Shown here: positions 2,061 through 13,320 of the stretch, piece after piece
Numbering within the stretch: the first letter of the stretch is position 1
Layout of the letters: every line of letters begins with the position of its first letter
NCBI GenBank assembly: GCA_002686955.1
Contig: NYZA01000233.1
Span: 1 to 13,320, forward strand
Origin: Gemmatimonadota bacterium
GTDB lineage: Bacteria > GCA-2686955
Direction: 5' to 3'
DNA: 13,320 nucleotides
The notes under the pieces: generated by a model
Database searches by the model: none
Told to the model about the DNA's origin: nothing
What the model saw: only the letters and a program-made list of their open reading frames with translations
Program-made: the position numbers and the translations under genes

Positions 2061-3497
2061 TCACCGATGTCGAATGCCGATCTCGTTGAAGAAGGCGGTC
2101 AGAAGCGCGTCTCTCGCCTCGATCGGGAGGATGTTCAGGATCTCATTGATCTCGGCCATATCGCCCGGGAGCTTTCCGCCACCGAGCCCCGCCGCGCCGA
2201 GCAGCGCTTCGATCGCATCGGGCGTCAACGAAGCGAGATCGACCCCTTTTAGCGTGTCGAGCAGAGGATTTGGAGGCGCTTTCGTGGCGCGCATGGTGTG
2301 CAGCGCTTCCTCCAGATCGTGCAGGAAGGCACCGGTTGTGCGCAGAGTGACGGGAACAATCGTCAGGTGGATGCTCTCCGGCACATCACCGAATCGCAGC
2401 TGCGGCTGCACGTGCCAACCGTTCCGCTTGAGCTCATCGGCGAGACGGAAGAGGTTCACCGAATCGGAGCCGAATGCCACGATGCTCATCGATGGCTCTC
2501 CGATGAGGTGGATGTCTTCCAAGTTCTCCACGCCGGCGATGATCTCATCGGTCGATCGCTTCAGCGCACGAGCGATCTCCAGATAGCCCTCCTCTCCAAA
2601 GTGTTGCAGCAACGTCCATGCGGCGGCCACCGGCCCGCCCGATCTGGAGCTCTGGATCGTTGGGTTGACCACGGCGTAGCCCGTCCACCCGGAGCAGGAG
2701 AAGATTTGGTGTCTTCTGAGGGACTTGTCTCGATAGAGGATGACCGACGCGCCCTTCGGAGCGAAGCCGTATTTGTGTAGGTCCATCGAGATCGAGCTGA
2801 CCCCGGGAACGCCGAGGTCGAAGTCGGGGATCGCCGCTCCCAGTTTTCGCAGGAAGGGCATGAGGAAGGCGCCGATGCATCCGTCGACGTGGAAAAGGAG
2901 GTCTGCTTCTTGCGCTATCGCGCCGATCTCGCGGATCGGGTCGAGGACTCCATGCGCGTACGAGGGGGCCGACGCGACCAGTAGAATCGTGGAGGGTGTG
3001 ATGGCCCGTCGCATCACTTCGGGATCTACGCGACACGAAAGCGGATCGACCGGGACGACGACAGGCTTGATGCCGAAGTACTCGCAGCCCTTGTGGAAAC
3101 AGGCATGAGCCGTAATCGGGAGCACGAGCTCGGGGGCTTCGATCTCAGGGCGGTTGGCGCGCGCCCAATCCCGGGCGGTCTTGACGGAGAGCAACACGCT
3201 CTCCGTGCCGCCGCTGGTGAAGTTACCGACAGTGTTCTCGTCTCCCCCCAAATGGCCGGCCGCCATGGCGATGATCTCGGATTCCATCTCGACCAAGCTC
3301 GGGCAAACCGTGGGATCCAAAGCGTTTTCCCAGAGAAACATCCTGCTGGCGGCCTCTACCAGCTCTCTGGCCTCGCGATCGGGGGCGAATACGTAGGCGA
3401 ATGTCTTGCCCTCGGACCAGTCGACATCGTTCGCGCGCTTGGAGCGCAAGCGGGCAAGGACTTCGGCGGGGCTTTGGCGTTCTCTTGGTGGTTTCAT
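2061..3497 (-). CDS. PLP-dependent lyase/decarboxylase, sphingosine-1-phosphate lyase-like
   Basis: This is a 478-residue fold-type I pyridoxal-phosphate enzyme of the group II decarboxylase superfamily, closest in pattern to sphingosine-1-phosphate lyase. That enzyme cleaves a phosphorylated long-chain base into a fatty aldehyde and phosphoethanolamine. Visible landmarks are TSGGTES (94-100, phosphate cup), AHACFHKG with H131 as the likely ring-stacking residue, HVDGCIGAF with D205 for the pyridine nitrogen, and SISMDLHKYGFAPKGAS with K242 as the Schiff-base lysine. The last motif and the following ILYRDK strongly resemble the lyase, whereas SSRSGGPVAAAW replaces its usual SRPG segment. There is no N-terminal membrane anchor, as in soluble bacterial homologues. 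It is the last gene of the - strand series, 72 bases after the HemJ-like gene, with only a weak ribosome-binding site. A glutamate or other amino-acid decarboxylase is a less likely alternative. The substrate is inferred. Confidence 0.8.
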   Translation of the reverse strand: MKPPRERQSPAEVLARLRSKRANDVDWSEGKTFAYVFAPDREARELVEAASRMFLWENALDPTVCPSLVEMESEIIAMAAGHLGGDENTVGNFTSGGTESVLLSVKTARDWARANRPEIEAPELVLPITAHACFHKGCEYFGIKPVVVPVDPLSCRVDPEVMRRAITPSTILLVASAPSYAHGVLDPIREIGAIAQEADLLFHVDGCIGAFLMPFLRKLGAAIPDFDLGVPGVSSISMDLHKYGFAPKGASVILYRDKSLRRHQIFSCSGWTGYAVVNPTIQSSRSGGPVAAAWTLLQHFGEEGYLEIARALKRSTDEIIAGVENLEDIHLIGEPSMSIVAFGSDSVNLFRLADELKRNGWHVQPQLRFGDVPESIHLTIVPVTLRTTGAFLHDLEEALHTMRATKAPPNPLLDTLKGVDLASLTPDAIEALLGAAGLGGGKLPGDMAEINEILNILPIEARDALLTAFFNEIGIRHR

Positions 3498-7480: not shown

Positions 7481-8125
7481 TCAATGCTCGATGTCTACCC
7501 TCACGAAGTAGTCACGGGCAATCGTCTCGATCGAGACGTTCTCGAACTCCGAAAAGAGCCCCTCGAGTCGAGGGCGATCGTAGAGGTAGAGATCACAGCG
7601 CGACCGATAGCGGAATCGCCGCTGCCAGCCTAGAATTCCCCCCGCCGCGGGGAAGCTGAAGAAGCCCCTGCGCGTCGCCATCCCCATCGCCTTCCGGATG
7701 ATTGTCGCTGGATCGGGTGTGTAGTCCATGAAACCGTTGAGAATGACGTAGTCGAAAGGCCGCTTCGGTTCGAAATCTTCGAAACTCGTATGAACCAGCT
7801 CGCAACGATCCGCCACGCCACAAGTTTCGGCGCGGGCGCCGGCAATCTCGAGCATGCCTTCGGCAAAGTCGAGTCCGACCGCACGCGCGGCTCCGCGACG
7901 GAGCAAGGCGACGAGGTAGTGCCCGGGGCCGCAGCCGACATCGAGTACCTCCGCGCCCTCGATCGGGTCACAGCTTTCGAGGGTGCGCTGGTAGCGCAGC
8001 TTCATGCTTCTGCGCAGCAGTGGATTCACTACGCGGTTGATCAAGCTCCGGCGCGTCCCGTATAGCGCGTCGAAGTCGGCTGCATATCCGTCGAAGAACT
8101 TCTGTGTGCGTTCAAGCGTTGGCAC
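7481..8125 (-). CDS. Class I SAM-dependent methyltransferase
   Basis: This is a soluble Rossmann-fold methyltransferase of the broad Methyltransf_11/25 type. From the GTG at 8125 it has 214 residues. Motif I, EVLDVGCGPGHY, is followed by VGLDFAEGMLEIA, where the acidic residue after the second strand binds the SAM ribose. A post-motif strand FDYVILNGFMDYTPDP follows. The N-terminus ERTQKFFDGYAADFDALYG is typical of small-molecule and quinone or cell-surface methyltransferases. An ATG at 8167 would add 14 residues and overlap the deacetylase by 56 bases. The GTG at 8125 is preferred because it overlaps by only 14 bases and has GGGGG about eight bases ahead. The substrate cannot be read. Coupling to a polysaccharide deacetylase suggests sugar or surface-polymer methylation; coupling to metH, which supplies methionine for SAM, may be coincidental. 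Confidence 0.83.
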   Translation of the reverse strand: MPTLERTQKFFDGYAADFDALYGTRRSLINRVVNPLLRRSMKLRYQRTLESCDPIEGAEVLDVGCGPGHYLVALLRRGAARAVGLDFAEGMLEIAGARAETCGVADRCELVHTSFEDFEPKRPFDYVILNGFMDYTPDPATIIRKAMGMATRRGFFSFPAAGGILGWQRRFRYRSRCDLYLYDRPRLEGLFSEFENVSIETIARDYFVRVDIEH

Positions 8126-8996
8126 GAGCTGCGCCCCCAGCCGACGTGCCGGCCAGACATGCCCCAAAGGTCGTGACCGGAAAATCGTCCAGCAATCTTG
8201 ATACCTTCAGGTAGGTTCCGTCAATGCAAGTGTAGGACTTGAAACGCCTCTTCGCGGAAAGGGGGAGGCGTGGATGGCCCGGATCGACCTCGCGGGGGTG
8301 CAGGTAGAAGGCGACCGGGCGCCCCTCGGCGATCACTCGGCGCGCCATCGACCGCACCAGGAGATAGGGGGACACACGCAGATATCCGCCCCCGAAGAAG
8401 CAGAGCGGCCGCCCCAGAACCGAGACGACCGACACCGGAAACTCGATGATCTTGCCCGCCGGCGTGGCGATTCGATGAGGCGCGACCGGAGCGCCCGGGA
8501 GTCCACCGTGGCCATGGGCCGCGGGAAAGACCGACGAGTCGTGTGTGTAGCCCGTACGCGCCAGCTCCTCGAAGAACCAGGGGGCATTTTCGGTCACCGA
8601 GAAGCCGGCCGCGCGATGCCACCGAACCGGCTCCCCGATCAGATCTTCCAATACATGGCGAGAGCGCAGGGCATCGTCGTGGAAGAGGTCGGCGCCCATG
8701 GAGCACACGAGTCGGTGGCGATGGCCGTGAGAGCCGATCTCGTGGCCCCTCGCCCAGGCTTCCCGCACGAGATGCGGATGCCTCTCGGCCACCCAGCCCA
8801 GGAAGAAACAGGTGACCGAAACACCTTTTTGGGAGAAGAGATCCAGGAGCCGCATGAAGCCTCGCTCCACGCGCGAGGGCAAGTCGTCCCAATCGGCCGC
8901 CGCGGGAGCGTTCTCGACTTCGAGAAGATGGAACCAGTCCTCGACATCGACCGAAAAGGCGGCCCCTCCTGCCGTCTTCAGTACTTCGGTCTTCAT
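8112..8996 (-). CDS. NodB-type polysaccharide deacetylase, XrtA/PEP-CTERM-associated (DUF3473) type
   Basis: This 294-residue carbohydrate esterase-4 enzyme is predicted to remove N-acetyl groups from an exported glycan. The start FSVDVEDWFHL (14-24) and the late FYLHPREVDPGHPR (230-243) are hallmarks of the deacetylases found with exosortase A and PEP-CTERM exopolysaccharide loci. Metal ligands are the Asp of VDVED and H90/H94 in EIGSHGHRH; H233 is the likely catalytic His near the end. Where relatives usually have a YRAPSFS-like motif, this protein has WHRAAGFSVT (126-135), so the loop has changed. There is no signal peptide, so it may act on the cytoplasmic side as its relatives are thought to do. 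The ATG at 8996 overlaps the rtcB remnant stop (ATGA) and has a strong ribosome-binding site. No exosortase gene is visible in the window. Confidence 0.85.
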   Translation of the reverse strand: MKTEVLKTAGGAAFSVDVEDWFHLLEVENAPAAADWDDLPSRVERGFMRLLDLFSQKGVSVTCFFLGWVAERHPHLVREAWARGHEIGSHGHRHRLVCSMGADLFHDDALRSRHVLEDLIGEPVRWHRAAGFSVTENAPWFFEELARTGYTHDSSVFPAAHGHGGLPGAPVAPHRIATPAGKIIEFPVSVVSVLGRPLCFFGGGYLRVSPYLLVRSMARRVIAEGRPVAFYLHPREVDPGHPRLPLSAKRRFKSYTCIDGTYLKVSRLLDDFPVTTFGACLAGTSAGGAARANA

Positions 8997-9657
8997 CCTT
9001 TGATCACCGCCAGGGGCACCAGTCGCGCAACTTTGCGCGCAATGCCGACCTCGCAGAAGTGATTTCCCGAACCGAGCGAGCCGAGCTGATCACGGCCCCG
9101 CTCCCGGGCTCGAGCGGAGACGAGGCGAGGCTCCGATCCTTCAAGCCTGCCGTCCTCTTCGGTCGATTCGATGTCCTCCCGGCGCGCGAGTCCGCGATCG
9201 ACCGCCCAGGAGACCCCATGCGCGTGAGCTCGGCATCGTTCAGCTTATTGCGTCCGGGGCGGCCGACCCCCGCGGGAACAGCGTCGAAGAGGGCGGTCGC
9301 CAACTCGTCGAGTCGCGGGATGAGCTCCTCGCGGGGCACCAAAGTCGATAGCAATCGCACACCGCAATTGATGTCGTAGCCGACACCGCCGGGACTGACG
9401 ACCCCCTCATCGAGATCGAAGGCCGCCACTCCGCCGATCGAAAACCCGTAGCCACGGTGGATGTCGGGCATTGCGATCGAGGCAGCGACGATGCCGGGTA
9501 GATGGGCGACGTTCGCGACCTGCTCGGCGCCTCCGTCGCGCCGAATGTCCGCGATCATCCGCTTGGTCGCGAAGATCAAGCCGGGCACCCGCATGCCACC
9601 GGTCTTCTGTATTCGCCACCGGTAGCGATCGATCTGCTCGAGTTGCGGAGAGCTCAT
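8993..9657 (-). pseudogene. rtcB: Frameshifted, C-terminally truncated RNA ligase rtcB
   Basis: Intact RtcB (about 480 residues) joins RNA 2',3'-cyclic phosphate or 3'-phosphate ends to 5'-OH ends using GTP and manganese. The first about 144 residues here are a good RtcB N-terminus: [19 protein letters not shown], then [16 protein letters not shown] with metal ligands D95 and C98, then FDAVPAGVG. Near 9220-9228 the frame breaks. The match resumes one frame over with [20 protein letters not shown], then [14 protein letters not shown] and GSGNHFCEV, and ends at a TGA at 8993-8995. Against the family, about three codons plus one base appear to be missing at the break. Everything after GSGNHF is gone, including the later metal-binding histidines and the histidine that carries GMP. 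Left in its original frame, the protein would end at 9004 as 217 residues with a nonsense tail. It begins at ATG 9657 inside the dehydrogenase stop (ATGA). It cannot be an active ligase. Confidence 0.85.
9002..9011 (-). promoter_or_regulatory. Extended Shine-Dalgarno site of the deacetylase gene
   Basis: On the - strand GGCGGTGATC matches the extended anti-Shine-Dalgarno complement GGAGGTGATC at nine of ten positions and ends five bases before the deacetylase ATG (8996). It lies within the last codons of the rtcB remnant, so the remnant's tail is also the neighbour's initiation site. Confidence 0.65.
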
Positions 9658-10604
9658 GGTGTTATCAGCACTTTCAATGCGTCGGGCCCGGCGGCGACGT
9701 CGAGAGCCCTGACGCCCTCATCGAGTGGGAAGATGTGTGTAGCCAGAGGGCGAGGATCTACGAGTCCAGCGGCGAGCAAGCGTAGAGCGGGCTCGAAGGG
9801 ACCGCAGCGAGAGCCGACCAGCGTGATCTCGTCGACGACCCAAGGAACGGAAGTCACCGCGGCCGCATCGTGGGTCGTGGTCTTCAAGACGATCGTGCCT
9901 CTTGGGCGGACCAGACGGGTGGCCAAAGCGATGCCATCGGTCGATCCGGTGCAATCCACGACGATATCGGCGCCGGCCAGGGTATCAGCATCGCCCGCAT
10001 GCACCGATTCGACACCGGGCGGCAAGAGATCGAAACGAGAGCTGTTTCGGCTCAGCGCTTGAACGCGAGAGCCGGTCAGGGCGAGAACACGGGCACAGAG
10101 CTGCCCGAGACGGCCGATGCCGAGCACGACGACGCGGTCGGTGGGTCGGATGTGGTTCGCCTCGACGATTTCGCAAGCCGCCGCGAGCGGTTCGGCGAAG
10201 ACAGCGGCCCGATCGTCCACCTCCTCGGGAACCGCGCGCAGATTCGCGACCGGCATGCGAAAGTGCTCCGAAAACGCGCCCTCGCGTCCCATGATGCCCA
10301 TGACGCTGCGCGAGGGACAATGGGATGGACGACCGCCGCGGCAGGTCGGACAAGTGCCACACGAGCAATTGATGCTCCCTACGACTCGCCTTCCGATCCA
10401 CGACCGATCCGGAGCTTCCTCGACGACGCCGACCCACTCATGCCCGAGCACGCCGCGATGATGCATATACCCTCGGACGAGTTCGATATCGGTAGCGCAT
10501 ATGCCGGCGACCAGAAGGCGGATCAGGGCTTCTTCGGTCGACGGGGGATCAGGGTAGTCACGGATCAGGCTGGGACCGCTGTCTTCTAGAACCAAGGCGC
10601 GCAT
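9654..10604 (-). CDS. Zinc-dependent medium-chain alcohol dehydrogenase-like protein
   Basis: This 316-residue NAD(P)-dependent oxidoreductase belongs to the medium-chain dehydrogenase/reductase superfamily. The catalytic zinc site is C36 in GICATD and H55/E56 in LGHEWVG, with E138 in [10 protein letters not shown]. The structural zinc lobe has four cysteines, C82, C85, C88 and C96, in [16 protein letters not shown]. The nucleotide fold is [14 protein letters not shown] (158-171). The start ATG at 10604 (MRALVLED) is a standard family N-terminus; longer frames run into the RND gene and are not used. It lies 35 bases after the RND stop and overlaps rtcB by ATGA. It is somewhat short for the family (typically 330-350 residues), with a compact C-terminal half. 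The substrate is unknown: sugar, polyol or alcohol are all possible. Confidence 0.86.
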
Positions 10605-10639: not shown

Positions 10640-13320
10640 TCAGCGACGATGGGCGAATCGCGGAAGCGCCCGCCTCGCGACCGACCCCACATCCTCCACG
10701 CCGGTGTACCAAACCGGCAAAGCCACGAGTGTGAACACAGTCGATGTCGCCAAGCCGCCGATCATCGCGGTCGCGAGAGGCCCCATCGGAGCGCCACCGA
10801 CCGCGAACGCCGAGGCTGCCAGGGGAATCAGTCCGAAAATCGTGGTCAGAGCCGTCATCAGCACCGGACGCAGCCGGTCGCCACAGCCCTCGATCAATGC
10901 ATCGACGCGATCCATCCCCTCTCGACGCAGTGTGTTGACATGGTTCACCATCACGATTCCATTGTTCACGACAATTCCGATCAGGAGTACCAATCCAAAG
11001 AACGACACCGGATCCAAGACATGCCCGCCGATCCAGAGGGCCCAAAACGCGCCGAAGAAGGCGAGAGGAAGGGTGATAACAATGGCCAAGGGTTGGCTGA
11101 ACGATTCGAATAGCGCCGCCATCAACATGATGACGACCAAAAGCGACAAGAGCACACCGTTGGTCATCGTTTGAAGTGTGTCGTCGTGCCGTTCCCCCAT
11201 GCTGCCCCAGCTCCAGCTATACCCTTGCGGCAGCTCGAAGCCCTCCATCGCCTCACTGACCCGCTCCCGGCCCTCCTCCGTGTTGGCAACCGCCTCCTTA
11301 TCGAACTGAACCCCGACCCAAGCGGTTGCCGCGCGGTCTTCGCGCCAAACGCCCCTCGGCGTTCGCGCGATCTCGATCGATGCCACCGACGCGAGCGGAA
11401 CCGGGGCCCCCGCGATGCGCGGAATCGGCAGATCGGCGAGTGCGGATACACCGGGTCGGGCATCTTCGGGCAGGCTCAATACCACGTCGACCTCGTGGTC
11501 GCCGCGATCGATCCTCTGCATCATCCGGCCTCTGAATGCGACGTTTGCCGAGGCGGCGACCGATTCGGGTGTCACGCCGAGGGCGTGCGCCCGTTCCGGA
11601 TCTACATGGATGCGCAGCTCTTTCTTCCCTTCGACACTGGGACCGAAAACGTCGATCGCATCTTCGAGTTCCCGCAGCCGCGCCTCGGCGCGGGTCGCCA
11701 ACACTTGAAGAAACTCGGGATCGGTCCCTCGAATCGACAGATTGATGCGCCGCTCTCCTTGAAATCGCCTGCGCCACCACTGTTCCTCACCCATGGTGAG
11801 CGATACGCCCGCGATCTTCGGCAGCACGGGGCGAACCCGTTCGCGCAAGCGGTCCAACATCTCTTTGCTGATTCGCCCCGGTGGGAGGTAGAGCCTCGTC
11901 ATCGTGCCGCCGTTCTCGTCGAACCAGGAGTACATGCTGTCGTAGCCCAGCTCCTCTTGTCGATCGGACAGATACGATTCCACCAAGTTTACGTGACTCT
12001 CCAACACCTCTTTCGTACTGGGATCGTGCACGCCGTATGTGATGGTGACGTAGCGCTCGACTACCTGAGGCTCATCCACCTTTTCGATCTCACGGAAAGG
12101 GACGATCGCGGTGGCGGCAAGGCTCAAGAGCGCTAAGAGCGTGAGGAGACGGTGGCGAAATGTCCATTGCAAGAGACGGCGGTAGGCCGGGTTGAGGCGA
12201 ACGGCTAGAAATCCGGACCCGGCACTTTTGCGCGCGGGGAATCGGGCGGCGATGAGCGGGATGAATGTGAGGGAAATCAGGAGCGAGGAAGCGACAGCCA
12301 AACAGATCGGCAGTGCCGCCGCACCGGCTTGGATGGTGAGCTCGCTTCGCTCCAAAATGAGCAGCCAAGACCAAACGATGACGGTTGTTGTCGTCGCGGC
12401 CACGACCGCTAGCGAAACCTGTCTCGCGCCGAGGCGAGCCGCCTGGCGCGGCCTGTGGCCGAGGTCCCCCAGCCGGTGGATGTTCTCGCTGACGACGACC
12501 GCGTTGTCGACCATCATTCCAACACCGAGGGCCAGCCCCAGCATGCTCAACACATTCAAGGTCTTGCCGAGCAGGAACATGCCGGCGCAGGTGACCAGAA
12601 GCGAGAATGGGATCGCCGTGGACACCAGCAGGGTCGTGCGGATGCTGCGCAGGAAGGCGTAGAGCATGAGCACGGCGAGGAGACCTCCCAGGAGACCCGC
12701 ATTTCTTAGTCCGGTGATCGCCGCATGGATCTCCTCGCCCTGGTTCTCCCATACGAGCAGCTTGATGCCCGCGAGCTTGGGATCGGTCTCGATCTCATCT
12801 ATTCGCGCCATCACCCGATCGACCGTTTCGACGGTGTTGGCGGTCGGCTCGCGATAGACGCCGATGCCGATCGCGAAATTTCGGTCGAGATGGCGCCCGT
12901 AGGACAGCCGCGGCTCACGGAGCTCCACATCGGCGACGTCGCCCACCCGAAGCTTCGTGCCGGGCAAGCGAAGCTCCCCAATCTCTTCGACATTCTCGAA
13001 ACGGGACTCCGAACGCACATCGAAGCGCAGCAAATCTCCTCGCAGAGCGCCCAGATCGAGATCGAAGTTGGCCGCATCGATCGTGCTGATGATTGCATCG
13101 GGCGACACGCCGTGGCGTGCCAGTGCATCGAGGTCGAGATCGATTCGCATCTGTCGCGGCTCGACTCCGTAGAGATCAACCCGGGCAACCCCGCGGATCC
13201 GCTCCAGCGGTCGCTTGATTCTGCGATCGAGCAGATCCCACGATTCCGAAAGATCGCGATCGGCCGAAATCCTCCCCTCGATGATCGCCCCCCCTCCGGG
13301 GCCTGAGATCTCACCCTCGA
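10640..13320 (-). CDS. RND-family efflux permease (5' end outside window)
   Basis: This is the inner-membrane proton-driven pump of a tripartite resistance-nodulation-division exporter. The frame is open to the window edge; 892 residues are visible and roughly 130-200 N-terminal residues are missing. The edge reads IEGRISADRDLSESWDLLDR then VARVDLYGVEP, the periplasmic porter domain, so the internal ATG at 13150 is not the start. The first membrane block includes ALGVGMMVDNAVVVSENIHR, where the fourth helix has Asp-Asn instead of the classical Asp-Asp pair (D codon at 12506-12508). The second porter half follows (VTITYGVHDPSTKEVLESHV), and then the C-terminal helices (PLAFFGAFWALWIGGHVLDP; GLVLLIGIVVNNGIVMVNHV). 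The protein ends RFAHRR. No adaptor or outer-membrane partner is in view; they may lie upstream. The sequence type is the heavy-metal or multidrug-like HAE group, and the substrate is not readable. Confidence 0.93.
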   Translation of the reverse strand, partial: EGEISGPGGGAIIEGRISADRDLSESWDLLDRRIKRPLERIRGVARVDLYGVEPRQMRIDLDLDALARHGVSPDAIISTIDAANFDLDLGALRGDLLRFDVRSESRFENVEEIGELRLPGTKLRVGDVADVELREPRLSYGRHLDRNFAIGIGVYREPTANTVETVDRVMARIDEIETDPKLAGIKLLVWENQGEEIHAAITGLRNAGLLGGLLAVLMLYAFLRSIRTTLLVSTAIPFSLLVTCAGMFLLGKTLNVLSMLGLALGVGMMVDNAVVVSENIHRLGDLGHRPRQAARLGARQVSLAVVAATTTTVIVWSWLLILERSELTIQAGAAALPICLAVASSLLISLTFIPLIAARFPARKSAGSGFLAVRLNPAYRRLLQWTFRHRLLTLLALLSLAATAIVPFREIEKVDEPQVVERYVTITYGVHDPSTKEVLESHVNLVESYLSDRQEELGYDSMYSWFDENGGTMTRLYLPPGRISKEMLDRLRERVRPVLPKIAGVSLTMGEEQWWRRRFQGERRINLSIRGTDPEFLQVLATRAEARLRELEDAIDVFGPSVEGKKELRIHVDPERAHALGVTPESVAASANVAFRGRMMQRIDRGDHEVDVVLSLPEDARPGVSALADLPIPRIAGAPVPLASVASIEIARTPRGVWREDRAATAWVGVQFDKEAVANTEEGRERVSEAMEGFELPQGYSWSWGSMGERHDDTLQTMTNGVLLSLLVVIMLMAALFESFSQPLAIVITLPLAFFGAFWALWIGGHVLDPVSFFGLVLLIGIVVNNGIVMVNHVNTLRREGMDRVDALIEGCGDRLRPVLMTALTTIFGLIPLAASAFAVGGAPMGPLATAMIGGLATSTVFTLVALPVWYTGVEDVGSVARRALPRFAHRR

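Follow-up and report, generated by a model that had tools for sequence, protein, structure and literature searches.

The window analysed here is a stretch of 13,320 nucleotides that makes up one entire contig of a Gemmatimonadota draft genome (4.28 Mb, 270 contigs, 84.5% complete). On its minus strand, three genes follow one another in the order dehydrogenase, rtcB remnant and deacetylase, and each joint is a 4-nt ATGA overlap. The upstream gene (9654-10604) encodes an intact zinc-dependent dehydrogenase of the MDR family, 316 amino acids in length, that is recognized by the Pfam domains ADH_N and ADH_zinc_N and by NCBIfam dehydrogenase matches. The downstream gene (8112-8996) encodes an intact XrtA-type polysaccharide deacetylase with a DUF3473 domain (Pfam PF11959 and PF01522); its NCBIfam score against TIGR03006 is 274.8 bits, slightly below the cut-off of 276.2. 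Between the two, at 8993-9657, Pfam and alignments to relatives and to the Pyrococcus horikoshii protein (1uc2) place the remnant of rtcB, the gene for RNA 3'-phosphate ligase, with its native start, its native stop and two internal lesions. The sequence bears out the original prediction of ATGA overlaps on both sides: the dehydrogenase TGA shares 9657-9654 with the rtcB ATG, and the native-frame stop of rtcB shares 8996-8993 with the deacetylase ATG. The probable ribosome-binding stretch of the deacetylase, GGCGGTGATCAAAGG-ATG, sits within the 3' end of rtcB.

Elsewhere in the window, metH is full length. The minus strand also carries an RND-type efflux permease at 10640-13320, its start cut by the contig end and its frame open to the last base, and a PLP-dependent decarboxylase of the tyrosine/glutamate decarboxylase group at 2061-3497, for which the best NCBIfam match is MfnA, under the cut-off. 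On the plus strand, positions 1185-1852 hold an 80-aa ORF (1185-1427, beginning MRTTLTLDPDLAAELK) overlapped by a 142-aa ORF (1424-1852, beginning MILVDANLLLYA). Judged by eye, the second ORF is PIN-domain-like and the two are probably a VapBC-type toxin-antitoxin pair.

RtcB homology had been claimed to span two reading frames, and Pfam bears this out with PF01139 matches in two minus-strand frames (E 3.2e-33 for 9004-9657 and E 6.1e-18 for 8996-9223). The first block, at 9217-9657, is read in frame 0 and comprises 147 codons (MSSPQLEQ to ELTRM) that include, by alignment to 1uc2, the equivalents of Asp65, Asp95 and Cys98. From the Gly-Val-Ser-Trp codons at 9217 onward, the homology moves out of frame 0. 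The second block (9044-9217, GVSWAVDRG and onward), delimited by Pfam and by the alignments to relatives and to 1uc2, continues in the native frame and holds the equivalents of Asn202, His203, Phe204 and Glu206. A final stretch at 8993-9043 encodes 16 residues of the RtcB C-terminus, including the Lys480 equivalent, followed by TGA. Frame 0 itself stops at 9004-9006, which ends the 217-aa ORF of the ORF list 7 nt ahead of the deacetylase ATG. In a structure database search, P. horikoshii RtcB was matched at residues 5-213 and 462-481 only. Compared with that protein (1uc2/4isz, PF01139), the N-terminal ~205 and the last ~20 residues align throughout, whereas the window gene is frame-shifted and lacks approximately residues 208-464. 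Nowhere does the remnant offer a single open frame of ~480 codons.

Two separate lesions account for this arrangement in the alignments to 29 relatives and to 1uc2. The first, at 9212-9235, is a frame change with a net loss of ~3 codons plus 1 nt, as the full-length relatives and P. horikoshii RtcB carry three extra residues at this point. The simplest reading of the alignment would therefore be a net loss of ~10 nt and not of one base from a G homopolymer. The frame shift proposed near 9220-9228 thus holds in position and fails as a bare 1-nt shift. A programmed-frameshift gene was also considered as an account of the site and was rejected, given that the relatives run through it uninterrupted and hold three extra residues there. 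The second lesion is the junction of an in-frame deletion of ~256 codons (~768 nt) at 9041-9052, between GNHFCEVG and IARKVARL. A median of 256 residues is missing there, and the count is the same against most of the 29 relatives. Adding both losses back gives a restored length of 221+3+256 = 480 aa, as compared with 481 in P. horikoshii RtcB. At the ends of the large deletion, no clear direct repeat emerged: the relatives' DNA matches at 3.2 of 9 nt as against 2.6 of 9 by chance, only a slight excess. The gap pattern of the lesions is absent from all 29 long homologues aligned.

The original prediction had the gene stopping directly after GSGNHF. That part does not stand, because the native frame runs past this region into the 16-residue tail and then TGA, and the tail is a true RtcB C-terminus. 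Its 16 residues match P. horikoshii RtcB residues 466-481, and the final 20 residues align to 462-481, the exact C-terminus of that protein. By itself the 20-residue alignment to 1uc2 is too short for significance; its weight comes from its position and from a profile test. In a profile built from the last 20 residues of the 29 relatives, the remnant tail scores 48 bits, while the relatives themselves span 39.9 to 66.4 bits. The next best 20-mer in ~223 kb of the same genome, translated in six frames (324,519 20-mers), reaches 11.4 bits, and when the tail was shuffled 100,000 times, no shuffled version reached 48 bits against the same profile. Full-length RtcB proteins of other genomes share this ending, for example GISRKVARLRPIGVIKG, and the characteristic C-terminus VARLxPLxVIKG-stop is present in the remnant. 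Because the tail score lies so far above the rest of the genome, the 3' end of rtcB is native. It follows that no deletion joined the middle of rtcB straight to the start of the deacetylase, as had been suggested, since the native C-terminus and stop lie between them. The proposed loss of the C-terminal catalytic half is correct for the catalytic middle and incorrect for the last 16 residues and the stop, which are still there.

The missing middle bears directly on function. The Mn(II) ligands of RtcB are Asp95, Cys98, His203, His234 and His329, and the GMP carrier is His404 (PMC10630183). Asp65, Asp95, Asn202, His203 and His404 are each needed for ligation, and archease gives no rescue (PMC3973293). 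By alignment to 1uc2, the remnant keeps equivalents of Asp65, Asp95, Cys98, Asn202, His203, Phe204, Glu206 and Lys480, while those of His234, His329 and His404 fall in the deleted part. Judged from these residues, the remnant cannot work as a ligase, even with both frames read as one, because the GMP-accepting His404 and the metal ligands His234 and His329 are missing. A functional mini-RtcB is conceivable nonetheless, in which frameshifting would yield a 221-aa protein that keeps Cys98, Asn202, His203 and Lys480 and has been recruited to a new task, for instance to bind RNA or metal. Conservation of the native frame on both sides of the first lesion and retention of the tail would fit such a protein; however, it would be without the GMP-taking His404 and two metal ligands, the first lesion costs ~10 nt, the relatives show no frame change there, and no second example occurs among the 29 long homologues aligned. 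This reading is accordingly regarded as highly improbable.

What remains of rtcB still resembles a working gene. Where the relatives are at least 90% conserved and the remnant still has the position, it keeps the consensus residue in 40 of 42 cases; in the other two, one Ala and one Thr have each become Ser. On either side of the first lesion, the native frame has codon scores of 0.219 and 0.131 per codon, against a genome coding mean of 0.149 and an off-frame mean of -0.116; the frame-0 reading after the shift scores -0.134 per codon. No further stop or shift was found in the native frame of the remnant. Since the conserved positions are kept, codon usage is gene-like and further stops are absent, the loss of rtcB looks recent on this sequence evidence, or else the lesions are an assembly error. 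Recent loss had been among the explanations put forward at the outset, and these observations agree with it.

A search of the genome for a full rtcB or for the missing part, as the original prediction had proposed, gave no other RtcB piece in the assembly: neither a second RtcB match nor the missing middle lies on any other contig of this 84.5% complete genome, of which 15% may be missing. Archease (PF01951), a partner gene of RtcB that is common and not universal, was also not found in the same 84.5% complete genome. In the sole other genome of the same phylum that was compared, there was no RtcB and no deacetylase match either. More widely, 20 of the 60 genomes searched are without RtcB, and the loss is therefore tolerated. 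Among 80 loci from other lineages, none placed rtcB beside the deacetylase within the flanks examined. In three genomes (G028, G020 and G039), the RtcB homology is split inside open frames 940 to 1416 codons long, the picture that intein-bearing RtcB genes would give.

The main rival to a pseudogene is an assembly error, which is the less likely of the two. Here the organism's rtcB would be intact, and the assembly, or a minority-strain consensus, would have dropped ~10 nt and ~770 nt. An intact gene in the organism would explain why the remainder is conserved like a working gene; the draft is also fragmented into 270 contigs, and single Ns occur in 2 of the 20 contigs sampled. The occurrence of two lesions in one gene with all else clean also points in this direction. 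Against this, the missing middle is on no other contig, and a simple miscount of homopolymer length explains neither lesion, the first costing ~10 nt. Of the other protein genes inspected in the window, none is broken, and the frame of the RND gene runs open as far as the contig end. Frequent indel errors were likewise not evident in a coarse frame-break screen of the sampled contigs. Segmentation of ~201 kb of coding sequence by codon usage returned seven raw frame-break candidates; the sites looked at closely, in L124 and L127, turned out to be normal overlaps between genes or regions around starts, and the remaining flags are in L121, L125, L128 and L133. With both sides considered, an artefact of assembly remains a serious but rather unlikely explanation. 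As to details of the draft itself, the single N bases lie at position 10599 of L118 and position 4222 of L119, two other contigs of the same genome, and are a sign of unresolved draft positions. The coarse codon screen also called plus-strand coding at 8997-9226, a call that is overridden by the RtcB homology.

A further possibility is that the remnant is selected as a translational bridge or leader, with the enzyme part lost and its sole job being to couple translation of the dehydrogenase to that of the deacetylase. The geometry permits coupling. A spacing between -8 and +10 nt is regarded as compatible with termination-reinitiation coupling and as predictive of it (PMC10666635); frame-0 translation ends at 9006-9004, 7 nt ahead of the deacetylase ATG and within this range, and the native-frame stop overlaps the ATG as well. 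Nevertheless, coupling can need no more than the final 15 nt of the gene upstream (PMC10666635), so that ~600 nt of remnant would be unneeded. The 71 sense codons that stay open in frame 0 after the shift have a chance of 19-31% of doing so in this genome, and it is the GTGATC of the conserved Val-Ile pair in the RtcB C-terminus that supplies the frame-0 stop. What is conserved, moreover, is the RtcB sequence of the native frame and not that of frame 0. The edges, in turn, need no selection on the remnant. Coupling probably persists as a by-product, and selection of the remnant for that purpose appears very unlikely.

The explanation that probably holds is a recently inactivated rtcB inside a tightly packed operon, in which two internal deletions have left both native ends in place. 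A short deletion near 9220 would have shifted the frame, and an in-frame deletion of ~770 nt would have removed the part with the nucleotide-accepting and metal-binding histidines. Both deletions would be spontaneous events inside the gene that spared its first codons as well as its last 16 codons and stop. The product would be a 217-aa out-of-frame truncate without ligase activity. Translation of the deacetylase could persist by coupling, with the stop of the truncate 7 nt ahead of the ATG in the context GGTGATC-AAAGG-ATG. The assembly itself shows both lesions, the genuine ends, the missing catalytic residues and the lack of a second copy, from which we infer that the organism carries the lesions, how old they are and that coupling occurs.

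Because both deletions are internal, such a history would leave the ATGA overlaps unaltered. The edges can stay clean without upkeep of the remnant, as they coincide with the stop codon of one neighbour and the start codon of the other. Precise edges had been thought unusual for a decaying gene; internal deletions simply leave both edges as they were. The main argument of the original prediction for something unusual is therefore gone, since the edges are the own ends of rtcB and require no special maintenance, and among the three explanations it offered, only recent loss survives.

The recently inactivated rtcB finds ready counterparts among known bacterial pseudogenes that carry internal deletions and frameshifts, which occur as clusters and as singletons (PMC3711429). 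With these it shares a gene defined by homology, a broken frame, a missing segment and no evident recoding motif, and nothing sets it apart from them except its intact ends and both operon overlaps. The rtcB of the window is thus most likely an ordinary pseudogene, a further recent loss of a gene from which many bacteria do without. Internal lesions can leave perfect ATGA edges, and precise edges are hence no proof of a selected remnant. Where a gene appears truncated, the last codons past the apparent truncation are worth comparing with the C-terminus of the family.
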